From assembly GCA_021740995.1 (NCBI GenBank), contig JAIOYR010000018.1, positions 1 through 53,332 on the forward strand: a stretch of 53,332 nt of DNA, written 5' to 3'. The notes under the pieces are model-generated. The model saw only the letters and a program-made list of their open reading frames with translations. It made no database searches and was not told the DNA's origin. This DNA is from Taibaiella sp. (GTDB lineage: Bacteria; Bacteroidota; Bacteroidia; Chitinophagales; Chitinophagaceae). Shown piece by piece: positions 1 to 49,072 of this stretch; within the stretch, counting starts at the first letter, position 1; every line of letters starts with the position of its first letter. The position numbers and the translations under genes were made by a program.

Positions 1-64
1 AAAGCTAACAGCAACACAAACGCAGACAGTAAATGGTGGCGGACCAGGTCTTGTACTTCAGTAA
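1..64 (+). CDS. RiPP precursor peptide, copy 1 (5' end outside window)
   Basis: By alignment with the other copies the window opens on the last base of codon 2, so only ATG-AA is missing. The visible part reads KLTATQTQTVNGG followed by the core GPGLVLQ and TAA at 62-64. The leader ends in Gly-Gly, the normal cleavage site for C39-peptidase ABC exporters such as the one encoded at 5435. It belongs to the LVLQ core class, like the copy at 2808. The 54-nt spacer behind it is almost identical to the spacer behind 2808, which shows a recent segmental duplication. The array probably continues to the left of the window. Confidence 0.75.
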   Translation, partial: KLTATQTQTVNGGGPGLVLQ

Positions 65-118
65 GCCGGCAATATCAGTAGTCAATTTCTTTTCTAACAT
101 TCAAAAAAATCAAACAAA

Positions 119-181
119 ATGAAAAAGCTAACAGCAACAGAAACACAGACAGTAAACGGCGGCGGATTAAAGTTCAACTAA
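119..181 (+). CDS. RiPP precursor peptide, copy 2 (20 aa)
   Basis: A 20-codon ORF with leader MKKLTATETQTVNGG and a predicted five-residue core GLKFN. It is far below usual gene-calling limits. Support comes from five intact copies with the same leader, from ATG placed directly behind the same A-rich stretch (TCAAACAAA) in each copy, and from the linked C39 exporter. The core contains no Cys, Ser, Thr, Asp or Glu, so lanthionine, lasso or ester chemistry on the core is excluded. The only carboxylate in the core is the C-terminus. Product function is unknown; a secreted signal peptide or a small modified peptide is the likeliest reading. Confidence 0.8.
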   Translation: MKKLTATETQTVNGGGLKFN

Positions 182-230
182 TCGCCGGTAATTCAAACAA
201 CATTTTTAAACACTCAAAAAATCAAACAAA

Positions 231-293
231 ATGAAAAAGCTAACAGCAACACAAACGCAGACAGTAAACGGTGGCGGATTGAAATTCAACTAA
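231..293 (+). CDS. RiPP precursor peptide, copy 3 (20 aa)
   Basis: Same architecture as copy 2. The leader has Gln at position 8 (TATQTQT) and the predicted core is again GLKFN. Codon differences from copy 2 in the core (TTG AAA against TTA AAG) are synonymous, so the core is held at the protein level while the DNA drifts. That is evidence for translation and selection. It is the last copy of the left array; a hairpin follows at 329-352, then the kinase gene. Confidence 0.8.
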   Translation: MKKLTATQTQTVNGGGLKFN

Positions 294-328
294 ATCACAC
301 CTTTAGTCTGGGACCAAAACGGAATCAC

Positions 329-358
329 GAAGCCTCGCACCAGCTTGGCTTCTTTTCC
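329..358 (+). terminator. Probable terminator of the left precursor array
   Basis: Perfect 6-bp arms GAAGCC (329-334) and GGCTTC (347-352) with a 12-nt loop, followed by TTTTCC. The stem is short, so termination may be partial. It separates the left precursor array from the kinase gene, which has its own promoter element at 533. Confidence 0.5.
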
Positions 359-532
359 ATGTATATGTACCTGTTTTACCAGATAATTCATCCATATGTT
401 TTTATATTCTAATTATATAATTTTGACACTTCCTCTTTTCATATGTAGTCTCTGCCCTATTTTACATTATCCTGATTTTCGGGGAGTCAAAAATACCGCA
501 TACGCGTTCCCTGAGAGGGGGCAAATTATTAC

Positions 533-540
533 TACTTTTG
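533..540 (+). promoter_or_regulatory. -7 promoter element TACTTTTG for the TPR kinase
   Basis: Exact match to the Bacteroidota -7 consensus TAnnTTTG, 29 nt before the ATG at 570. I do not see a clear -33 TTG. Its position downstream of the longest possible start (396) is the main reason for choosing 570 as the real start. Confidence 0.55.
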
Positions 541-569
541 GACACATAAAAATATCTTTTCGAACAATT

Positions 570-2594
570 ATGAAGTATTTTTTGCTGCTATGCATTTTGC
601 TGCCATCGTCTTTGCTGGCGCGAAAAAAAACAGGACAAGAGAAAATAGATTCACTGGTGAACTTGCTGCCCGGCATGAAAGAGGATAGCAATAAGGTGAC
701 CGTATTGAGCAGTATTGCATTTTTGAATTGCAATTTCAACCCGGATATGGGGGTTGAGTTTGGAGAGAAGGCAGTAGAACTTGCAAAGACAATCAACTGG
801 AAACCCGGACTGGCCTATGCTTACAATTGTATAGGTGCCAACTACCAAATTGCTGGCAAAAGCGAATTGGCGATGACAATGTTTGATCGCTCATTGAAAA
901 TCTATGAAGAGCTGGAAGATAAGGATAACATGGCTATGATACAGGGTAATATGGCTTTGTCTTATGCGTCAGTAGGTAACAATGTCAAGAGTTTGGAAAT
1001 AATGCATAAAACGCTGATGATTTATGAAGAATTAGATAATAAAAAAGGAATAGCTCGTATGCATGCAAATATTGGTAAGCTATACGATGAGCAGAAAAAC
1101 TATAGCAAAGCACTGTATCACGACACGCTTGCTTTGGCAATATTTCAGAATATGAGAAATAGAGTGAGTGTGGCAGGTTTGCTGGTAAACCTTGGCAATG
1201 TGTATAGTTCATTAGGAAATCATGATAAGGGGATTATATATTTATCAGAAGCTTTATCGATTTATGATAGCACTGGCAACAAAAATGGAATAGCAAGAGT
1301 GCTACTAAATATCAGTACAGTCTATTCCGCAGAAAAAGATCCATACAAAGCGCTCGAATTTCAGTTTAGGGCATTAAAGATGTACGAAGAAATGGGGCAT
1401 GAATTAGGCATCGCCTTATCTGAGCTGAATATAGCTGCCTTTTATGGAGATATTGCTGAAGATGCTGCCGAAATTAAAGCATCATCAATAGTGCCTGCTA
1501 GTAGAAACGCTTGTTTAAAGCTCACTGTGCTGCATGCCCGGAAAGGAATTGACATACTTATAAAAAACAATAACCTGAATGAGCTTGCGTCTGCCTACAA
1601 GTTGATGGCTGATGCGGAGCGATTATTGGGCAACTATAAAGTGGCTTTAGAGAACTACTTAAAATACAGCAAACTCAACGACTCCATTTTTTCGATTGAA
1701 AGCAACAAGAAAATACAAAACCTCGAAAATCAGCGCGAACTTGACCTGAAAGAGAGCAGAATAAAAATACTATCGCAGGAGAACAATATGAAAGACCTGA
1801 GAGCCGCCAGAGATAAGCAGACCCGCAGGGCATTGGTAGGTGGAATAGGTATGGTGGTAGTTATTGCTGTCTCTCTGGTGATGTACTATGTGCGCAAGCA
1901 ACGGAATGATAAGCTGATAGCAAATGAACGTATAAATACATTGCTGAAAGAGCAGGAACTACAATCTGTAAGCAGTATGCTGGAAGTGCAGGAGCAGGAG
2001 CGAAAACGCATAGCCGGCGATCTACATGATCGTCTGGGCAGCATGCTGTCTACAGTAAAGCTGTATTTCAATACTGTAGAGGAGCAGATAGATAACCTGA
2101 AATCGCAAAACAAGGAGCAATACCACAAGGCTACTGCGCTGCTGGATGAGGCATGTGATGAAGTAAGGAAGATATCGCACAACCTGGTATCGGGTGAGTT
2201 GGTGAAATTCGGACTGGTATCAGCACTCAATCAGCTGAAAAATACTATTGAAGATACCGGTAAAATGAAAATGAATGTATTTGCCTTTGGCATGGAGGAG
2301 CGACTGGACAGTACTATGGAAATATCGCTATACAGGGTAGTGCAGGAGCTGATGAATAATATGCTGAAACATGCAAAAGCCACCGAGGTAACTATTCAGC
2401 TAAACAGGGTAGATGACAACCTGAATATAATGGTAGAAGACAATGGTGTGGGATTTGATGTAGCTGCCGTACTGGCGAAAGACGGGATGGGGCTAAGGAA
2501 TATGGAAACACGTGTGAAAAAGATGCAGGGAGTTATTTCAATCGATTCGGGAAAGGGCAGAGGCACTACCACCATAATTGATATTCCTGTGTAA
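570..2594 (+). CDS. TPR-containing sensor histidine kinase (HisKA_3 / NarX-like type), embedded in the precursor array
   Basis: 674 aa from the ATG at 570; a longer frame from 396 is rejected because it crosses the promoter and lacks the signal peptide at its start. Residues 1-17 form a signal peptide (MKYFLLLCILLPSSLLA). About seven tetratricopeptide repeats with a 40-residue period fill residues 40-375, followed by a coiled coil and one membrane helix at 421-441. The cytoplasmic part has the HisKA_3 phospho-acceptor H486 in ERKRIAGDLHDRLGS and an HATPase_c domain (N box ELMNNMLKHA, then GVGFD and GMGLRN). The TPR domain should therefore be periplasmic. TPR kinases of this kind usually work with LuxR-type response regulators; none lies nearby. 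Its position between two precursor arrays suggests, but does not prove, that it senses the exported peptides. Confidence 0.9.
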   Translation: MKYFLLLCILLPSSLLARKKTGQEKIDSLVNLLPGMKEDSNKVTVLSSIAFLNCNFNPDMGVEFGEKAVELAKTINWKPGLAYAYNCIGANYQIAGKSELAMTMFDRSLKIYEELEDKDNMAMIQGNMALSYASVGNNVKSLEIMHKTLMIYEELDNKKGIARMHANIGKLYDEQKNYSKALYHDTLALAIFQNMRNRVSVAGLLVNLGNVYSSLGNHDKGIIYLSEALSIYDSTGNKNGIARVLLNISTVYSAEKDPYKALEFQFRALKMYEEMGHELGIALSELNIAAFYGDIAEDAAEIKASSIVPASRNACLKLTVLHARKGIDILIKNNNLNELASAYKLMADAERLLGNYKVALENYLKYSKLNDSIFSIESNKKIQNLENQRELDLKESRIKILSQENNMKDLRAARDKQTRRALVGGIGMVVVIAVSLVMYYVRKQRNDKLIANERINTLLKEQELQSVSSMLEVQEQERKRIAGDLHDRLGSMLSTVKLYFNTVEEQIDNLKSQNKEQYHKATALLDEACDEVRKISHNLVSGELVKFGLVSALNQLKNTIEDTGKMKMNVFAFGMEERLDSTMEISLYRVVQELMNNMLKHAKATEVTIQLNRVDDNLNIMVEDNGVGFDVAAVLAKDGMGLRNMETRVKKMQGVISIDSGKGRGTTTIIDIPV

Positions 2595-2726
2595 ATATCA
2601 TTTTCTAACCAGGGTACTATCTCAGACCAAATCCTTTAATTACCAGGCTGCCTGTCTATTGCCATCTCGTGGAAGGCCCAATGATATCCCTGAAAACCGT
2701 TAGATAAAAATCATCAATTACAGTTA

Positions 2727-2757
2727 TTGCTCAAGGCCCCTTGCTGCCGCATCTTTG
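2727..2757 (+). promoter_or_regulatory. Promoter of the right precursor array
   Basis: TTG at 2727-2729, a 20-nt spacer and CATCTTTG at 2750-2757. This fits the Bacteroidota -33 TTG / -7 TAnnTTTG arrangement with one mismatch (C for the first T). The inferred start near 2762 leaves a 5' leader of about 45 nt before the ATG at 2808. The rest of the 2595-2807 gap shows no gene. Confidence 0.55.
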
Positions 2758-2807
2758 TGTCATCAAAACAAGCAAATATTTTTTTCACTTTTCAAAAACC
2801 AAACAAA

Positions 2808-2876
2808 ATGAAAAAGCTAACAGCAACAGAAACACAGACAGTAAATGGTGGCGGACCAGGTCTTGTACTTCAGTAA
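2808..2876 (+). CDS. RiPP precursor peptide, copy 4 (22 aa)
   Basis: 22 codons: leader MKKLTATETQTVNGG and a predicted seven-residue core GPGLVLQ. The core is identical to copy 1, and the downstream spacer is also nearly identical to the one behind copy 1. It is the first gene after the promoter at 2727-2757. The core lacks acidic, hydroxyl and thiol residues and ends in Gln. Confidence 0.8.
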   Translation: MKKLTATETQTVNGGGPGLVLQ

Positions 2877-2930
2877 GCCGGCAATATCAGTAGTCAATTT
2901 CTTTTCTAACATTCAAAAAAATCAAACAAA

Positions 2931-2993
2931 ATGAAAAAGCTAACAGCAACAGAAATACAGACAGTAAACGGTGGTGGAGTAAGGTTCAATTAA
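2931..2993 (+). CDS. RiPP precursor peptide, copy 5 (20 aa)
   Basis: Leader as in the other copies except Ile for Thr at position 9 (TATEIQT), GG cleavage site and predicted core GVRFN. Relative to GLKFN the changes are Leu to Val and Lys to Arg, both conservative. The pattern Gly-hydrophobic-basic-Phe-Asn is therefore a constrained core class distinct from the PG-hydrophobic-hydrophobic-Leu-Gln class. Confidence 0.8.
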   Translation: MKKLTATEIQTVNGGGVRFN

Positions 2994-3020
2994 TTTTTCG
3001 CCTCCCAATCTTTCACAAGT

Positions 3021-3086
3021 AAAAAGCCAACAGCAACAGAAACACAGACAGTAAACGGCGGCGAACCCGGAATTATTCTACAATAA
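3021..3086 (+). pseudogene. Decayed RiPP precursor, copy 6 (start codon lost)
   Basis: The frame KKPTATETQTVNGG followed by EPGIILQ and TAA matches the other copies, but the codon before it is AGT, and no ATG, GTG or TTG occurs in frame back to the TAA at 2991. The A-rich block normally before the ATG is missing and the spacer is only 27 nt, so a small deletion removed the initiation region. The core class is the Leu-Gln type, with Glu in place of the third Gly and Leu to Pro in the leader. Expression is unlikely unless a non-standard start is used. Confidence 0.7.
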
Positions 3087-3122
3087 TTTGTACAGCCGGA
3101 GATTCGTTTCACTGATTTGAAT

Positions 3123-3148
3123 AAAGGACTGGCACCTGCCGGTCTTTT
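3123..3148 (+). terminator. Terminator between precursor array and biosynthetic operon
   Basis: Hairpin with core arms GACTGGC and GCCGGTC (one G-T pair), loop ACCT, flanked by AAAG before and TTTT behind. It is a good intrinsic terminator. It implies that precursors and the maturation/export operon are separately transcribed, which fits the higher dose needed for precursors. Confidence 0.75.
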
Positions 3149-3263
3149 ATGGTGTGGTCAGATCTTTACCTACTTTTATGTCATTAGGCTTTTCTCCTTG
3201 TTTTTGTTTATTTGCACCCAACAATACTCTATATTTTAATACAGTAACAAAACTATTAGAAGC

Positions 3264-5438
3264 ATGAATCCACTTTTAGGCATTATAGGTAATCCAAAAC
3301 AAGGTAATATAGCGGCAAGCAACACTATATGTTTTGATGTGTTACGGCGCAAATTTCCTTCTGCTATTGTCAACGCAGGTAGTATCGATTTGGGCTCACT
3401 GGAAATGCTTGGCGATTTACAAAGCGCTACAAAAGGTGATGATGCTTTGTATTTTTATGGAGAGTTGTTTAACAGTAATGAACTAGCCGCAATAACATCA
3501 TTAACACCATCGGCAGAAAATGCCAGTCTCGTTCTGGCACTTATATCTGCAAAAGGAGTTGATGCTGTGAAGCTGGTCAACGGCCAGTTTGTGATTATCT
3601 ATTATCAGAAGGCTCAAAACAGGATTAGCATTATCAGCGACCATATGGGCGTACAGCAGTTGTTATACTATTGCAACGAGGAAATGTTTCTTTTTGGCTC
3701 TGAAGTAAAACTAATGATGACACATCCCGGCTGCCCTAAAGGAATAGACTGGGCTACCGCGCTCAGGCGACCACAACCACAGATTGCCCTTGCCAGCTAT
3801 AAAAGCCACGATACCTGGTTCAAAGGGATAAATCTGCTGCCTGAAGGAAGTATGTTGCAGATAGACCTGTTAACCTTTAAAACCAATATAAAGAGCTATT
3901 GGAAACCACAGGACACACAACCGGCAGCAAACGACACACGCACCGCAGAGCAGGTGATGGAGCAATATGCTGCCTTGCTGGAAAATGCTGTGAAAGTAAG
4001 GATGGAAGACAATGGTACCACCCACTCCTTGCTCAGTGGCGGGCTGGATTCTTCTGCTATATGTAGTCTTGCTGCACGAAATGGCATTGTGGAAACATTC
4101 TCTATCATCAACCAGACAACAATGCTGGAAGACACTACTTCTTACTGTGCAAAAATGGCTGCCGAGATGAACTTCGATAACAAACAGTTTCTCATTCCTT
4201 ATCACCGGCTGTGCTTCAATGCAGACCTTTGGAAGCAGCGTGTGTGGCGGGCCGAGTCGCCGGTAAATCATACAGACTCGCTTACCAAAACACTACTGCA
4301 CTATGCAATAAGAAAAGCTAACCCTGAAGTAAAAAATCTGCTCACCGGCACCGGCAGCGACCAGATGAATGGCGGGCTGGTAGGCTATATAGCTCAGGTA
4401 ACTGACGACCCAAACCAGACTTGGGACAACTTTCAGAATGAAATACTGGATGTAGAACGCCGAACACTTATAGCCAGAAGCGAGGACTCGTTATGGCAAT
4501 GCAGAAAGTTTGTGAGCCGGGATTTTCTTTCAACCATTTCGGGTAAAGAAATTGAAAAAAATCCATGGATGATCTATGTAGACGGATGCACACACTCTGA
4601 AGCCTATAGCCTGCTTTGGGATGAGCAGCGGGCTTCCGCATCTCATGGCCATATCACCCGCTACCCCTTTCTCGACTATCGCATAGCCGAGTTTATAGCC
4701 GCAGTACCTGAACGGCTGCATAAAGACCTGTTTATAGATAAGCGCATACTCAGAGAGCCCTCCAAACATTTTCTGCCAGACTATATTGTGAACAAGCCCA
4801 AAATGCCCTACAATCTGCCTGAATATGACTTCAGGGCAGAGCTATATGCATTCCTTACAGCAGACGGGCCTGATTCGCTGTTTATTGCTGCTTTTGGCGA
4901 TATAGATACTCCCCATCCGGTGATAGACAAAAAGATGCTGTATAGCAGGATTCAGGCATTGCGCCAAAACCCCGAAATACTGGAATGGCTCAATATCATG
5001 CACATCATCAACCTAGGCCTGCTGGAGCAACTGGCAGAAAAAAACGAGCAGGATCTCAATTATGAAGCATTGTTGGAGGTGCCGGCACATATTGAATTTG
5101 ATGAGCCGGAATCTGCTATTGTCAAGCTTAGGAAGGAACTGGATGTTTTGACCACTGATGAAATGCTGGACCTGCCTTTAAAGTTTGCAGAGAATTGCTC
5201 CCTTTTGCTTGATACCAAGACCAATAAATATTATCTTTCGAAAAGAAATAACATTACCTACGAAATTGATGAAGAATACAAACATTGGAAACAATTTCTG
5301 ATGGCTGTAGACAATAAGCTGAGTGCACACCAGGTGCTGCAGGCAACAGGCTTGCAGTATGTGGATATAGAGGAGTTCTTCATGATCTCTTTAAAAGAAC
5401 AAATACTGGTAACCAACGATAAAAAGACAGGGTATTGA
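3264..5438 (+). CDS. Asparagine-synthetase-like RiPP enzyme with C-terminal RRE (PqqD-like) domain
   Basis: 724 aa. Residues 1-210 resemble the AsnB glutaminase fold, but the N-terminus is MNPLLGIIGN, without the Cys2 nucleophile, so ammonia cannot be made from glutamine. This is shared with lasso-peptide cyclases and beta-lactam synthetases. The synthetase domain has the PP-loop SGGLDSS at 258-264, the second ATP motif TGTGSDQMNGG at 361-371, RYPFLD near 466 and KRILREPSKHFLP near 493. Residues about 640-718 look like a PqqD/RRE winged helix, which normally binds RiPP leaders. The enzyme should adenylate a carboxylate and form an amide on the linked precursors. Since the cores have no Asp or Glu, the target is probably the C-terminal carboxylate, or a leader Glu. 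First gene of an operon: its stop TGA overlaps the TTG start of the exporter. Confidence 0.85.
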   Translation: MNPLLGIIGNPKQGNIAASNTICFDVLRRKFPSAIVNAGSIDLGSLEMLGDLQSATKGDDALYFYGELFNSNELAAITSLTPSAENASLVLALISAKGVDAVKLVNGQFVIIYYQKAQNRISIISDHMGVQQLLYYCNEEMFLFGSEVKLMMTHPGCPKGIDWATALRRPQPQIALASYKSHDTWFKGINLLPEGSMLQIDLLTFKTNIKSYWKPQDTQPAANDTRTAEQVMEQYAALLENAVKVRMEDNGTTHSLLSGGLDSSAICSLAARNGIVETFSIINQTTMLEDTTSYCAKMAAEMNFDNKQFLIPYHRLCFNADLWKQRVWRAESPVNHTDSLTKTLLHYAIRKANPEVKNLLTGTGSDQMNGGLVGYIAQVTDDPNQTWDNFQNEILDVERRTLIARSEDSLWQCRKFVSRDFLSTISGKEIEKNPWMIYVDGCTHSEAYSLLWDEQRASASHGHITRYPFLDYRIAEFIAAVPERLHKDLFIDKRILREPSKHFLPDYIVNKPKMPYNLPEYDFRAELYAFLTADGPDSLFIAAFGDIDTPHPVIDKKMLYSRIQALRQNPEILEWLNIMHIINLGLLEQLAEKNEQDLNYEALLEVPAHIEFDEPESAIVKLRKELDVLTTDEMLDLPLKFAENCSLLLDTKTNKYYLSKRNNITYEIDEEYKHWKQFLMAVDNKLSAHQVLQATGLQYVDIEEFFMISLKEQILVTNDKKTGY

Positions 5439-7621
5439 GAACGAAAAAAAGTTTTCCCTTTATTCAGCAGCGTGCCATGATGGATTGTGGCACTACCTGT
5501 CTTGCTATGATATTTAAGTATTATGGCTACTACAATATTCAGACCTTGTTATCTAAGCTGGGTGAAGTATCTACTGAAGGTGTGAGCCTGTATAGTCTCA
5601 TAGATGTAGCAGAGCAGTTTGGGTTCAAGGCCGAGGCATATGAGATGACTTACGAATACCTGCCGCAGATAACATTGCCCTGTATTGCGCATTACAACGG
5701 AGTGCACTTCATAGTAGTGTATAAGGTTACTGACGAGTATGTCTGGACCGCCAACCCTGCTTATGGAAAAGAAAAACTGAGTAAGGAAGAATTTCTGAAA
5801 AGGTGGAACGGAATCGCCATGTCGATAGAGCCCACGCCTGAGATGTTCAAAAACAAAGACCTCGAAGATTCGGTCATGAAATTTGTCCATGAACGGAAGT
5901 CTTTGTATAAAAAGTTCTATGCCCCTGTACTTTCGTCGCTCAAGAGAATCATCTTTGAAATATTGCTGGCTACGGCGCTGCTGCAGGCGCTGGGACTGGC
6001 TATACCTTTTTTTACACAGACTATTATTGACGATGTATTGGTAAACCAGAACAGCAAATTGCTGGTAGCTATTCTGGCAGGTATGTGTGGTGTGTTTCTT
6101 GTACAGATATTGTTGCTCTATGTAAGGAATATTCTACTAGTACAATTCCGAGTAAATTTTGAGCTCGACTTTTTCAGCCGCTTCTTCAAGCACTTCATAT
6201 CGCTGAAGCAGAAGTATTACGACAGCAACAAGCGGGAAGATTTTATGACCCGTTTTCAGGAGAACATAACTATACGCCAACTGGTAAACCCTACTGTGCT
6301 GGAAAGCATTATAGACGTACTCTTCGTGTTGCTCTATGTACCAGTGCTTATAGTATTCAATGCCAAGCTGGGGCTGCTTGCTTTGCTCTTTATACTTGTC
6401 TATGCAGGTGTTACTATATACTTTGCCCCTATCATGCGGTCACTTGTATATAAGGTCTTCTACCGCAATATGGATACACTGGGCGAGTTTCTGGATTCGC
6501 TGCTGGGTATCAAGTCAGTAAAACTCCTGGCCATAGAGCAATTCAAATTTTGGCAGTGGAAAAACAAATACAAGAAGACACTCAATGTGGTGCTGGAGTC
6601 TGAGAAGAAGGGTATTATACTTCACTCTGTACAGCGCAGTATTTATTTTGTAAGTCAGGTGGCCATCTTTTGGGTAGGTGGCTACATGACCCTGCACAAT
6701 GAGATAACAATAGGTCAATACCTTTCTATCACCGCCATATTCATGCTCATTCTCAACTCGCTCAATAATCTCTCTTCTATATGGTACAACCTTACAGAAC
6801 TGTGGGTGAGTCTGGGCAGGCTGAATGAGGTGCTGCTGCAGGAAACCGAAGACCACTCTGTGCTGAACCTCGCCAATAGTTTTGCAACTGATACCATTAC
6901 TGTTAAAGACCTATCTTTTCGTTATAGCCAGAAGGATGCTAACTATGCCCTAAAGGGTGTGAATTTTTCGCTAAAACAAGGCGAAACAATAGGCATAGTG
7001 GGGAGGAACGGAACTGGTAAAACAACCCTTGTAAAGCTGCTGCTTAATCTGTATCCCGAGTACGAGGGAGAAATACTACTGGGTGGCACAGAGTTGCGCA
7101 AGCTGAACCCTATGGCGGTAAGGAAACGGATATTCCTGTTTCCACAAGACATCTATATTTTCAATGGCACTATAAAGGAAAATATACTGTACGGCAATCT
7201 GAATGCCGACATTGAAGATATAATAGCCGCTGCGAAACTGGCCGGGCTACATGATTTTGTAAAGTCGCAGTACATGGGCTATAACCACAAGCTGGGCGAT
7301 ACTGGGAGCAACCTATCGGGCGGTCAACGGCTGAAGATAGGGTTTGCACGCCTGTTTCTGAGCAACCCGGATGTAATCATACTTGATGAAGCCAGCAGTA
7401 TGCTGGATGTGGAATCGGAGAAACAAATAATGGACAACTTGAAATCGCATTTTAAGGGTAAGACTATCATATCCATTGCTCACCGCATGAATACCCTGAA
7501 AAATGCTGACAGAATCTGGGTAATAGACAAGGGCACAATAGCCGAAGATGGACACCACGATACGCTGATAAAACAAGATGGGTTGTACCGCCAATTTATG
7601 AACACTTATATTGATTTCTGA
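5435..7621 (+). CDS. C39-peptidase ABC exporter (PCAT) for Gly-Gly leader peptides
   Basis: 728 aa, full length for a peptidase-containing ABC transporter. N-terminal peptidase domain: C18 in MMDCGTTCL, H91 in NGVHFIVVY, and Asn107 in ANPAYG where most C39 enzymes have Asp. Membrane domain about 170-470. ATPase: Walker A GRNGTGKTT from 525, LSGGQ at 627-631 and ILDEASSMLD after 648. It should cleave the leaders after GG and export the cores. The start is TTG at 5435, overlapping the upstream TGA (TTGA). It is chosen because the next ATG lies inside the catalytic motif and would delete residues 1-14, including the conserved Gln before the Cys. Its stop overlaps the ATG of the HlyD gene (TGATG), so all three genes are translationally coupled. 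Confidence 0.92.
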   Translation: MRTKKSFPFIQQRAMMDCGTTCLAMIFKYYGYYNIQTLLSKLGEVSTEGVSLYSLIDVAEQFGFKAEAYEMTYEYLPQITLPCIAHYNGVHFIVVYKVTDEYVWTANPAYGKEKLSKEEFLKRWNGIAMSIEPTPEMFKNKDLEDSVMKFVHERKSLYKKFYAPVLSSLKRIIFEILLATALLQALGLAIPFFTQTIIDDVLVNQNSKLLVAILAGMCGVFLVQILLLYVRNILLVQFRVNFELDFFSRFFKHFISLKQKYYDSNKREDFMTRFQENITIRQLVNPTVLESIIDVLFVLLYVPVLIVFNAKLGLLALLFILVYAGVTIYFAPIMRSLVYKVFYRNMDTLGEFLDSLLGIKSVKLLAIEQFKFWQWKNKYKKTLNVVLESEKKGIILHSVQRSIYFVSQVAIFWVGGYMTLHNEITIGQYLSITAIFMLILNSLNNLSSIWYNLTELWVSLGRLNEVLLQETEDHSVLNLANSFATDTITVKDLSFRYSQKDANYALKGVNFSLKQGETIGIVGRNGTGKTTLVKLLLNLYPEYEGEILLGGTELRKLNPMAVRKRIFLFPQDIYIFNGTIKENILYGNLNADIEDIIAAAKLAGLHDFVKSQYMGYNHKLGDTGSNLSGGQRLKIGFARLFLSNPDVIILDEASSMLDVESEKQIMDNLKSHFKGKTIISIAHRMNTLKNADRIWVIDKGTIAEDGHHDTLIKQDGLYRQFMNTYIDF

Positions 7622-8892
7622 TGAGCGCAACTGATGAACTGGCACCGCAGCAATACGGTAAACACTACTGGGAAGAAGATATTCCCCTTGCCGATGTGCG
7701 GGTGAAGCTCATGCGCCAGCTATTGTACGGTGGCGTGGTAGTCTTTACGATACTTATGTTGCTGGGGGCTTTTGTGAAGTTCCCGGATCAGGTAGAGTTG
7801 CCATTTGTGCTGAAGAATGAAGCACCCGATGAGACCTATAATTTCCCCTATCCGGTGTATGTTGCTGAAAAGTATATAGCTGCCGGAAGTGAAGTAAAAG
7901 AAGGTCAGCCCTTGATGAAAATTTCGAGCCCGGAAATTGTAGTGTTGCTGAATAATTATGAAGAAGCAAAAAAGAACCTTGAGAATTTCCGCCTGCGCAA
8001 AAACATGTCGATAAACAATCAGCGGGAAATAATAACAACACACATTCGTGAAACGCAAAACAAGCTGGCAGCAGTGAAAGCAGAGCTTGCCTCGCTTGAA
8101 AACACATGGCAGAGTAACAAAGAGCGACTGGAATTTGAATATAGCCGTGCTGAAAAGAAGTTGGCATCAGACAAGGAGCTGTACAAGGGTAAGTATGTTT
8201 CTGAAAACGAACTGAAAGAAACAGAAGAGAAATACATAAAAGCTGGTGACGCCCGCAAAACAGCTAAGCTGACCTATGAAAAAGAAAGCACAAATTTGTC
8301 TGCTATAGCCAGTCAATACTCGTTAAGCATTTTGTCGCTCAATCAGGAACTGGATAAACTATCGTCCGATACAAAGTTCGACTCATCAGCACTATTAAAC
8401 CAGCTGGAGACCACAAAAAACAGAATAAGTAATACATTCGGAAACTTCGATATTGCAGAGGGCAATCTGGTACTGAAAGCTACAAAGGCGGGGTTGGTAA
8501 CCTATGTGTTTGAAGGTGACAAAGAAGTGCAGAGTAGCGCCATACTGCTGAAGATAAACCATAAAAGCAGCGGACTGTATTCATCTGTATCCTGCCCGCC
8601 TACCATGATAGGAAAGGTGCGGAAAAACCAGATTGCTTACCTGAAACTCGCAACCTTTCCTGCGTATGAGTGGGGTTCTGTAAAGGGGCATGTAGCAAAC
8701 TTTAGTATGGCAAATGATGAAAAAGGAGACTTTACCGTCAGAATTGATATGGACGACTACCGCAAGCTAAACAACATGCTGCAGCCGGGGCTCACAGGAA
8801 ATGTCACTATTGTATTGCATGAGCGTACCTTCTTTCAGTATTTCTTCAGAGCATTGAAGAAGACCTATTATACGGTTACTATGAACAATTAA
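7621..8892 (+). CDS. HlyD-family periplasmic adaptor (membrane fusion protein)
   Basis: 423 aa with one membrane anchor at residues 34-53, two lipoyl-like half motifs (about 75-105 and 280-315) flanking a long coiled-coil hairpin (about 110-260), and a C-terminal beta domain. This is the usual HlyD/CusB layout. It should join the C39 exporter to an outer-membrane TolC-like channel, which is not encoded here. The ATG overlaps the exporter stop by one base. It completes the export machinery and shows that the product leaves the cell rather than stopping in the periplasm. Confidence 0.9.
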   Translation: MSATDELAPQQYGKHYWEEDIPLADVRVKLMRQLLYGGVVVFTILMLLGAFVKFPDQVELPFVLKNEAPDETYNFPYPVYVAEKYIAAGSEVKEGQPLMKISSPEIVVLLNNYEEAKKNLENFRLRKNMSINNQREIITTHIRETQNKLAAVKAELASLENTWQSNKERLEFEYSRAEKKLASDKELYKGKYVSENELKETEEKYIKAGDARKTAKLTYEKESTNLSAIASQYSLSILSLNQELDKLSSDTKFDSSALLNQLETTKNRISNTFGNFDIAEGNLVLKATKAGLVTYVFEGDKEVQSSAILLKINHKSSGLYSSVSCPPTMIGKVRKNQIAYLKLATFPAYEWGSVKGHVANFSMANDEKGDFTVRIDMDDYRKLNNMLQPGLTGNVTIVLHERTFFQYFFRALKKTYYTVTMNN

Positions 8893-9038
8893 TGGCTTTT
8901 GAGGCATTAGTGCGTATACCAATAAAGGATAGAATAAATATTTAAGAAATATGGAGAAATAAGTTTACCTTCATTGCAATCTTATCACTAAACCAGTCTC
9001 TGCTCTTTTTTACTTTTCAGCCTGAAATATTTCGCCTA

Positions 9039-10268: not shown

Positions 10269-11174
10269 TTAACTACCGGTTCTTGTGGTCGCTTTCCGCT
10301 TGTTAATAATATACACTGCAGCTATACCCAGCACGCCTCCCACCATTGTGTGCAGCATTATATGCTCGCCCAGCAACAACCATGAAGAGATGGCAGCGCA
10401 AAGAGGTACAAGGAAAATAAAACTACTTGCTTTTTCGGCACCAAGGCGAGTGGTAGTATAGAAGTACACAGTAGTGGCTCCTGCGGTCACAATCACCGAA
10501 CTGAACACCAGATTCAACCAGAATACCTTGTCTTTTATGCTCATGGCTGCGTTCATTTCCTGAAAATCGGTAAAGGGTAGCAAACAAAGCAGTGTAATAA
10601 GATATTGCCACGTACTAAACCCTATAGAAGAGCCATGCTGCGCCCCTTTGGCGGTAAACTTGCTCATAACCGCCCATGTAAATGCAGCCAACAAAAAGTA
10701 AAGGTTCCCACTATCAAGCAGCGCAGCAGTATTGTCCCACAACTTTAGTAACACACAGCCAGCAGTGATGCCTAGTGCCAGCCCTATAGACTCGTTGCGG
10801 GATGGCAATCGCTTGCTCAGCAGTAAGCCTATGGTATATGCCATTATGGGGTTCATTATGGTTACCAGCACCCCACCTGCCCCTGCGGAACCAGTCTTAA
10901 GCCCTTTGAAGAAAAAGAAACTATAGGCCGCCAGCAGCACACCCGAAATCAGCAGAGCAGGTATCCCTTTGTTTCTAATTCTGAAACTAATGCGCAACGA
11001 CAACAGCAACACTACCATTGTCAGCACCACCAAAATATATCTGTAAACCGAAAAGTTGATAACGGTGCAGTAACCGGTAAGCACCTTTCCTGATGGCCAG
11101 CTAAGCCCCCATAAGAACATACTGAATACAATGCCACTTACCAGTACATTCTGTGATACTTTTCTGTCCGTCAT
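10269..11174 (-). CDS. EamA/DMT-superfamily transporter
   Basis: 301 aa with ten hydrophobic segments arranged as two EamA repeats. Typical features are SMFLWGLSWPSGKVL in the first helix and the second-repeat segment FTWAVMSKFTAKG. DMT exporters of this type move small metabolites (amino acids, pyridine nucleotides or nucleosides); the substrate cannot be read from sequence. The ATG at 11174 is followed directly by a plausible N-terminal tail. It is 52 bp from the DUF523 gene on the same strand, so the two may be co-transcribed, but DUF523 has its own promoter element. Confidence 0.85.
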   Translation of the reverse strand: MTDRKVSQNVLVSGIVFSMFLWGLSWPSGKVLTGYCTVINFSVYRYILVVLTMVVLLLSLRISFRIRNKGIPALLISGVLLAAYSFFFFKGLKTGSAGAGGVLVTIMNPIMAYTIGLLLSKRLPSRNESIGLALGITAGCVLLKLWDNTAALLDSGNLYFLLAAFTWAVMSKFTAKGAQHGSSIGFSTWQYLITLLCLLPFTDFQEMNAAMSIKDKVFWLNLVFSSVIVTAGATTVYFYTTTRLGAEKASSFIFLVPLCAAISSWLLLGEHIMLHTMVGGVLGIAAVYIINKRKATTRTGS

Positions 11175-11251
11175 CTGTATAAGAATGGAAATAAAAACCC
11201 GGCGAAGTTACGACAATAGGCGTTGCAGAATAGAGCAACTTCATTTGGTTA

Positions 11252-47528: not shown

Positions 47529-48053
47529 TTAGTTGTAGTTTACAGTTACCGGTACACCAGTTGCGTTGGTGTAGGTTCCTGCAGCCTGTGCTGCTGATAC
47601 GTTCAGTGTTGCACCTACAGTGAGTGTTTCTGTACCACCTGCACTTAGTGTGCCGGTAGCTGATGGTGTGCTCGTGAAAGCATTTACCGTCATGTTATGA
47701 GATGCACCATCGGTGATGGTAGTAGTTGTAGGTAGTGTGATAGCGTAAGTGTAGCTCGCCTGACCAGATACAGTGAAGCTTGCAGCAGCAACAGTACCGG
47801 TAGTAGCTGGAAGTGTAACACCACCTGCACCGCCTGTAGTACGGGTACCTGCTGGTGACAATATTGCTGTACCTGCAAGGGTAGCAGATACGGCTACGTT
47901 ACCGAAGTTCATATCTACTGTCTTTACTATTGATATCGGGGTGATGATGTTTGCAGATGCAGATGCTGTGGCAGTTGCCTGAGCAAAAGATGCGTTAGAG
48001 AATCCCATTACTGCTACTGAAGCGATTGCGATTGACTTGAAGATGTTTTTCAT
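47529..48053 (-). CDS. DUF4402 secreted protein, copy A
   Basis: 174 aa. Signal peptide MKNIFKSIAIASVAVMGFSNASFAQ, then a Thr/Ala/Gly-rich beta domain with ITPISIVKTVDMNFGNVAVS and VSGQASYTYAITLP, the DUF4402 pattern, ending in VPVTVNYN. It has no cysteines. The family resembles fimbrial or surface-layer components of Bacteroidota; function is not established. It differs from copy B (48548) at only about a dozen residues, clustered in the middle of the chain, while signal peptide and C-terminus are almost unchanged. Confidence 0.88.
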   Translation of the reverse strand: MKNIFKSIAIASVAVMGFSNASFAQATATASASANIITPISIVKTVDMNFGNVAVSATLAGTAILSPAGTRTTGGAGGVTLPATTGTVAAASFTVSGQASYTYAITLPTTTTITDGASHNMTVNAFTSTPSATGTLSAGGTETLTVGATLNVSAAQAAGTYTNATGVPVTVNYN

Positions 48054-48547: not shown

Positions 48548-49072
48548 TTAGTTGTAGTTGACAGTTACAGGTACCGCGGTTGCGTTGGTATATGTGCCTG
48601 CAGCCTGTGCTGCTGATACGTTCAGTGTTGCACCTACAGTGAGTGTTTCTGTACCACCTGCACTTAATGTGCCGGTAGCTGATGGTGTGCTGGTGAAAGC
48701 ATTTACCGTCATGTTATGAGATGCACCATCGGTAATGGTAGCCGTAGATGGCAATGTGATATCGTAAGTGTAGCTCGCGCTGCCGGATACAGTAAAGCTG
48801 GCTGCAGCTACAGTACCGGTAGTAGCAGGTAGTGTAACACCACCTGCGCCGCCTGTGGTACGAACACCTGCAGGGGTCATGATGACCGTACCTGCGAGGG
48901 TTGCGGATACGGCTACATTACCGAAGTTCATATCTACTGTCTTTACTATTGTAATAGGAGTAATGATATTGGCAGATGCAGATGCTGTTGCTGTTGCCTG
49001 TGCAAAAGACGCGTTAGAGAATCCGATTACTGCTACTGAAGCGATTGCGATTGTCTTGAAGATGTTTTTCAT
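48548..49072 (-). CDS. DUF4402 secreted protein, copy B
   Basis: 174 aa, same length and order as copy A: signal peptide ending SFAQ, ANIITPITIVKTVDMNFGN and the same C-terminal block to VPVTVNYN. Upstream element, terminator and coding sequence are all duplicated, so the two genes arose from a tandem duplication of about 1.02 kb. Both copies remain intact, which suggests selection for dose or for slight differences in the central strands. Confidence 0.88.
   Translation of the reverse strand: MKNIFKTIAIASVAVIGFSNASFAQATATASASANIITPITIVKTVDMNFGNVAVSATLAGTVIMTPAGVRTTGGAGGVTLPATTGTVAAASFTVSGSASYTYDITLPSTATITDGASHNMTVNAFTSTPSATGTLSAGGTETLTVGATLNVSAAQAAGTYTNATAVPVTVNYN

Follow-up and report, generated by a model that had tools for sequence, protein, structure and literature searches.

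Tandem genes for ultra-short double-glycine peptides beside TPR histidine kinases in Taibaiella: a locus resembling a peptide signalling or natural-product system not yet described

What do tandem genes of 20–22 codons, each ending in a core of five or seven residues, do for the bacterium that carries them? Such genes open a 53,332-nucleotide contig of Taibaiella sp. (GenBank assembly GCA_021740995.1, contig JAIOYR010000018.1), here called the window, which corresponds to contig C82 in a genome of 3.9 Mb and 151 contigs. A preliminary description of the window had seen double-glycine (GG) leader peptides feeding an AsnB-like enzyme, a C39 exporter and an HlyD adaptor, and had offered two options: ribosomally synthesized and post-translationally modified peptides (RiPPs) or peptide signals. 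That pair is still apt; the locus has the look of a peptide signalling or natural-product system not described before. Going by titles and the opening parts of abstracts, searches of the open-access literature list no description of this array, nor of any Bacteroidota oligopeptide pheromone with a tetratricopeptide repeat (TPR) kinase; excerpts of PMC13289728 and PMC12710340 contain nothing further on the array or on TPR-kinase pheromones.

The pattern GTNAAYGGNGG occurs at six sites in the window against 0.61 expected, a count reached in none of 100 shuffled sequences, so the six leader copies reported earlier are indeed present. They comprise four complete precursor open reading frames (ORFs), one truncated ORF and one decayed copy, which an HMM still matched at model positions 2–15 (E 1.0e-6). 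The truncated ORF, copy 1, had been counted as intact; the left edge of the window is a contig break within the array, and its first base cuts this gene. The end of a second contig, C27, overlaps the window start exactly over 76 nt and the two contigs most likely abut, although a read spanning the join was not seen and a repeat could mislead. C27 carries 14 precursor ORFs on its reverse strand (13–1730), one of them copy 1 in full, and the array thus holds 18 intact genes plus a decayed copy, about three times the extent first described. Allowing up to three mismatches, a leader pattern has 25 sites in the genome (14 on C27, six on C82 and five elsewhere), while the reversed pattern, used as a control, gave one site on each strand. 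The matches on C86 were rejected as precursors because they sit inside a giant repetitive ORF, and those on C26, C93 and C95 as three-mismatch sites; one stretch inspected around the C95 site contained no short GG ORF. The C86 ORF (40000–50077) is a single open frame of more than 3,300 codons, rich in TVTGGG-type repeats and by eye adhesin-like.

Differences among the 18 leaders depend on the reading frame. The ratio of nonsynonymous to synonymous differences (pN/pS), which is descriptive here as the array copies share descent, is 0.16 in frame versus 1.69 and 1.09 out of frame, and codon differences fall mostly at third positions (0.049, 0.061 and 0.259 by position). Fourteen of the 18 cores, 11 of them distinct, belong to a five-residue class, [GAT]-x-[KR]-[FLM]-N, in which position 2 is hypervariable (pN/pS 1.16), position 3 is Lys or Arg throughout (0.21), position 4 is Phe, Leu or Met, and position 5 is Asn in all 14 (pN/pS 0). 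The remaining four follow GPGL[VI]LQ (two distinct sequences) and all end in Gln; every intact core therefore terminates in Asn or Gln. The substitution pattern supports selection on the leader/core genes, as had been proposed, and the short precursors are very likely real genes. It is hardly credible that they are repeat DNA without coding function: high copy number and similar spacers would suit that explanation, but the frame-specific constraint does not, and both core classes are also found in a second lineage. Gene callers usually discard genes as short as these, of about 20 codons, so more of them may be hidden. The leader ends in GG in 17 of the 18 intact copies and in GD in one, with Val or Ile at position −4 and Leu at −12 in all 18. 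On sequence grounds it thus has the GG end and the hydrophobic −4 and −12 residues typical of C39-exported peptides; TIGR01847 scored 15.1 bits against it, below the cut-off of 15.7.

A leader-only search of the genome_contigs collection gave eight loci, of which one was ultra-short, in a Saprospiraceae metagenome-assembled genome (MAG). There, a 20-codon ORF with an ATT start ends in GLKWN and a second ORF, which starts with ATG and lies outside the search pattern, ends in GPILQ. Both core classes agree with those of the window, and both ORFs lie between genes for a TPR kinase (742 aa) and a LuxR-type regulator, proteins that are only distantly similar to those of the Taibaiella locus (29% identity for the kinases and 34% for the regulators over the aligned parts). 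Chance adjacency of the peptides and the kinase appears unlikely, given 21 kinase matches at E ≤ 1e-20 in the Taibaiella genome and four in the MAG. The preliminary description had named the AsnB, C39 and HlyD genes as partners of the peptides; they are linked to them here, but the sole independent occurrence found is with a TPR kinase and a LuxR-type regulator, which favours signalling. The other seven loci were rejected, as longer GG precursors (three, in Tenacibaculum, Chryseobacterium and Sphingobacteriales), as segments inside long clostridial proteins (three) or as a chance frame (one).

Both types of gene also accompany the Taibaiella peptides, which the preliminary description had not recorded. 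C27 carries, in order, an AraC-like gene (by eye), TPR kinase 1 (677 aa), a LuxR-type regulator with a GerE domain (212 aa) and the 14 precursors; the window adds two further complete precursors, TPR kinase 2, two precursors, the decayed copy and the AsnB-like, C39-ABC and HlyD-like genes. Kinase 2, within an ORF at 396–2594, shows a signal-like N-terminus (read by eye), TPR, one apparent transmembrane (TM) segment, HisKA_3 and HATPase_c. The two kinases are 69% identical overall, with 171 of 350 residues shared in the TPR part and 219 of 233 in the kinase part. Synonymous difference is likewise lower in the kinase half (pS 0.53 versus 0.84), from which gene conversion of that half is possible; with or without conversion, the aligned sensors differ and the output hardly does, which suggests two input specificities into one regulator. 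The best bacterial structure matches of the modelled sensor are the pheromone receptors RapI and NprR, and the model thus predicts a TPR receptor fold of the Rap/PlcR/NprR type.

Four blocks of precursors, holding 7, 4, 5 and 2 intact genes by manual count, each open with a conserved promoter region (consensus CCTGA...CCG..AGA.AAA.ATCAT....TACAGTTATTG.TCA, about 20 nt upstream of CGCATCTTTGT). The upstream part of this box has a single occurrence in the window with 0 expected. The array box and the kinase-promoter box are each found once in the window, so no wider regulon can be read from them. Rfam gave no matches at gathering level in window positions 1–9000, and the scans gave 10 sigma-70 promoter sites versus 9.0 in shuffles and 0 terminators versus 2.5.

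Table 1. Features of the precursor array and linked genes (window positions unless C27 is named).
Feature	Position	Strand	Remarks
Precursor copy 1, 3' part, MKKLTATQTQTVNGG-GPGLVLQ	1..61	+	No ATG in window; start codon on C27
Precursor copy 1, complete	C27:13-81	reverse	Via 76-nt contig overlap
Precursor MKKLTATETQTVNGG-GLKFN	119..181	+	
Precursor MKKLTATQTQTVNGG-GLKFN	231..293	+	
TPR sensor histidine kinase (kinase 2)	570..2594	+	Pfam; ORF opens at 396, probable start 570 from comparison with C27 kinase
Conserved promoter-region box before last sub-array	2689..2772	+	Alignment; three more copies on C27
Precursor MKKLTATETQTVNGG-GPGLVLQ	2808..2876	+	
Precursor MKKLTATEIQTVNGG-GVRFN	2931..2993	+	
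Decayed precursor, core EPGIILQ	3021..3086	+	AGT in place of ATG; Pro for Leu4
Asparagine-synthetase-like enzyme	3264..5438	+	PP-loop SGGLDSS intact; glutaminase residues lost; 119-residue C-terminal extension (possible RRE)
C39 peptidase-containing ABC exporter	5435..7621	+	TTG start; Cys and His kept, Asn for DP aspartate
HlyD-like membrane fusion protein	7621..8892	+	Overlaps C39-ABC gene by 1 nt

We propose that the array encodes C39-exported oligopeptide signals read by the TPR kinases, a proposal that we regard as evenly poised between right and wrong. The 15-residue leader of each 20–22-residue precursor would be recognised by the C39 exporter and HlyD adaptor, and cleavage after GG would yield a five-residue G-x-K/R-F/L/M-N or a seven-residue G-P-G-L-V-L-Q peptide. 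Released to the periplasm or medium, these peptides would bind the groove of the periplasmic TPR sensors in the two paralogous histidine kinases. The target of the kinases would be the LuxR-type regulator on C27, with probable feedback by this regulator at the four conserved promoter regions before the sub-arrays. The likely site of action of the AsnB-like enzyme is the C-terminal Asn or Gln, since at this position alone every intact core has kept an amide residue. Should a peptide ligand be established for one TPR sensor, the whole sensor class (21 kinase matches in this genome) would become testable.

Gram-positive bacteria have well-known peptide pheromones, and two of their systems invite comparison. 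In the RRNPP family (Rap-Phr, NprR, PlcR), linear peptides of 5–7 residues are cut from short precursors, as proposed here, and the receptors have the TPR fold that is modelled here. However, RRNPP receptors are regulators or phosphatases that act in the cytoplasm after peptide import, whereas here the TPR lies between a signal-like N-terminus and a TM-like segment, with a HisKA_3–HATPase kinase after it, and the linked exporter is of the C39 type. The streptococcal ComC-ComAB-ComDE system shares the GG leader, the C39 ABC exporter with its adaptor, and a histidine kinase with a response regulator; its pheromone has about 17 residues, its kinase is multi-TM and its regulator is of the LytTR type, in contrast to the 5–7 residues, TPR sensor, HisKA_3 and GerE (LuxR-type) domains and 18 gene copies found here. 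A bolder version, which we consider improbable, makes the locus a Gram-negative counterpart of RRNPP: two classes of 5–7-residue pheromones, arrayed, C39-exported and C-terminally sealed, would be read by periplasmic Rap-like TPR kinases with diversifying sensors and an unchanging kinase part, the sealing being done by a glutaminase-dead asparagine-synthetase-like (AS-like) enzyme that converts the terminal Asn or Gln, through its side-chain amide, into a cyclic imide (−18 Da). Closer in host are the Bacteroidales RiPP clusters of PMC10352776, which have PCAT exporters and in some cases histidine kinase/response regulator or TPR genes, with signalling suggested; the text available to us has no occurrence of "asparagine synth" and no ultra-short array.

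Several observations weigh against the proposed signalling role. For a pheromone, eighteen genes and 13 distinct cores would be a large number. The four exporter matches in the Saprospiraceae MAG all miss the C39 domain (each starts at or beyond query residue 176), no AsnB was seen in the 18 kb inspected around the peptides, and the first of the two ORFs begins with ATT. LGN/Pins outscore the Rap family as matches to the modelled sensor, and sharing a fold does not establish a function. A sensor hotspot was sought on the concave TPR helices and not found, the putative concave helices being no more diverged than the others (57/104 versus 46/106 identical). TPR sensors are not confined to the array: the 21 kinase matches in the genome include the two array kinases, and 14 of the other 19 were inspected without finding such peptides nearby; four TPR proteins scanned carry a cyclase (three) or another type of kinase (one). 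Two related kinases in the genus likewise lack such peptides in the surrounding 13–14 kb each. Of these two, one has a kinase half 73% identical on a different sensor (by eye) and the other a TPR part of 38% identity.

Other TPR genes were seen along the way. Contig C6 bears, at about 100–119 kb, a tandem run of nine TPR-type proteins of 638–682 aa; the two scanned both have a class III nucleotidyl cyclase domain, and no short GG ORFs were seen between the nine. On contig C28 (9061–9867), a match to the kinase half contains one internal TAA and is possibly a decayed kinase.

The number and variability of the cores bear on a different use, in which the array would supply a cocktail of short exported peptides, modified as RiPPs or not and with antimicrobial or other bioactivity, merely under two-component control, and the kinases would sense something else. 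Many paralogues and a hypervariable second core residue fit such a diversified product library, and two relatives of the AsnB-like enzyme, also extended past the synthase domain, lie in lanthipeptide-like clusters (annotated LanM; LanC- and LanB-like by eye). Yet no immunity gene was recognised among the six window neighbours scanned, the peptides recur with a TPR kinase and regulator and not with a biosynthetic enzyme, and cores of 5–7 residues are short for bacteriocins; we consider the cocktail rather unlikely. The Saprospiraceae arrangement, in which the ORFs separate the kinase gene from the regulator gene and no match to a C39 exporter was found, would also suit peptides that are translated and never exported, acting as nascent-peptide attenuators or intracellular kinase regulators. 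This is very unlikely for the Taibaiella array, where most copies are followed by another copy and not by a structural gene, the leader resembles C39 substrates, and core as well as leader is constrained and diversified by position.

Returning to signalling by exported peptides, the processing genes deserve scrutiny. Their linkage had been correctly described: the AsnB-like and C39-ABC genes overlap by 4 nt and the C39-ABC and HlyD-like genes by 1 nt. The exporter matches Peptidase_C39 (E 1.3e-33) and its best solved match is 4ry2, which we take to be PCAT1; Cys and His align with those of 4ry2, and DPGKG of 4ry2 reads NPAYG here. The AsnB-like protein matches Pfam Asn_synthase, has beta-lactam synthetase as its best solved match, and has this domain and its PP-loop in common with AS-like enzymes such as nitrilobacillin PesC, TsrC, lasso cyclases and beta-lactam synthetase. 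It differs from them in its lost residues: aligned with two homologues from lanthipeptide-like clusters that keep them all, it has MNPLLG for MCG (catalytic Cys), no HRGP, YGE for NGE, and Gln367/Leu372 for the Glu/Tyr of GSDEFNGGY, with SGGLDSS and Lys493 retained. According to PMC13060819, a Glu-Tyr dyad is present in all five AS-like enzymes compared; by spacing, this would be the pair lost here. Since the glutaminase residues and the Glu-Tyr pair are lost, ammonia amidation by this enzyme is unlikely and simple amidation was marked down as a candidate; ring-forming chemistry or a non-enzymatic role may be its function. The C-terminal extension, a possible RiPP recognition element (RRE), gave no Pfam hit and an hhalign probability of 0.3% against one PqqD; its model has a beta3-alpha3 order at low confidence (pLDDT 55), with PqqD as the top Foldseek hit at a non-significant E of 0.29, so that an RRE-like tail is only suggestive. 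Together with the Asn in place of the exporter's DP aspartate, these features mean that a complete maturation route, as first described, was an overstatement.

The enzyme nevertheless prompts one more explanation, a library of modified peptides in which it would adenylate the C-terminal Asn or Gln carboxylate for ring closure or joining to an amine, giving capped peptides (e.g., a protease inhibitor or metallophore) with incidental regulation. The invariably amide-bearing C-terminus, the retained PP-loop and Lys493 with loss of the glutaminase residues, and the match to beta-lactam synthetase all speak for it, as does the AS-like enzyme PesC, whose target is the C-terminal Asn of a RiPP precursor (PMC13060819). 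But with Gln367-Leu372 where spacing places the dyad, the enzyme may catalyse a different reaction or none at all, and no such enzyme was seen near the Saprospiraceae peptides; we think this library quite unlikely. Lasso peptides fit poorly, as none of the 18 intact cores contains an Asp or Glu for the ring. No transglutaminase-like leader protease was found among the six window genes and two C27 genes to which the scan was limited.

The precursor family appears to be very rare in the genomes sampled. Precursor model HMM A1 found only the Taibaiella genome itself among 298 genomes of the order (E ≤ 0.01); in the genus it gave 5 of 35 genomes at E ≤ 1, four of them others at E 0.15–0.47 that were taken as chance. 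HMM A2 matched 1 of 298 genomes of the order of the Saprospiraceae MAG. The pattern ATGAARAARYTNACN...GGNGG...TAA occurred in 13 of 385 phylum genomes, and the 12 others were translated: G1320 has an ordinary 58-residue GG precursor, G1336 a 17-codon MKKF...GG-KLP ORF that overlaps the end of a longer frame and was taken as chance, although it may be real, G1224 a 42-codon ORF with TVGG, and the remaining nine no GG precursors. The leader pattern had no match in viral_contigs. Homologues of the AsnB-like enzyme were found in 2 of 147 family genomes at 1e-60 and 1 of 395 class genomes at 1e-45, with none confirmed in genome_contigs or viral_contigs, and relatives of 26.5–29.1% identity on three Streptomyces plasmids; the C39 exporter was matched in 3 of 35 genus genomes at 1e-80. 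No homologous AsnB-C39-HlyD operon came to light in the genomes sampled.

Some minor observations concern these relatives and the surrounding DNA. Chryseobacterium viscerum has four GG-leader ORFs of 52–82 aa within about 6.4 kb, precursors of ordinary length with a related leader. An AsnB-like enzyme of genome G071 keeps its glutaminase motif intact and is extended at the C-terminus; by eye its neighbours are LanC-like and LanB-like. The AsnB relative on Streptomyces scopuliridis plasmid NZ_CP109092.1 (26.5% identity over 91%) adjoins annotated LanM, diiron oxygenase and PqqD genes. Finally, highly similar DUF4402-type proteins are encoded at 47529–48053 and 48548–49072 of the window (Pfam) and, as a third member, at 10650–11249 of the C27 stretch; the C-terminal 54 residues of the trio differ at no more than one position.

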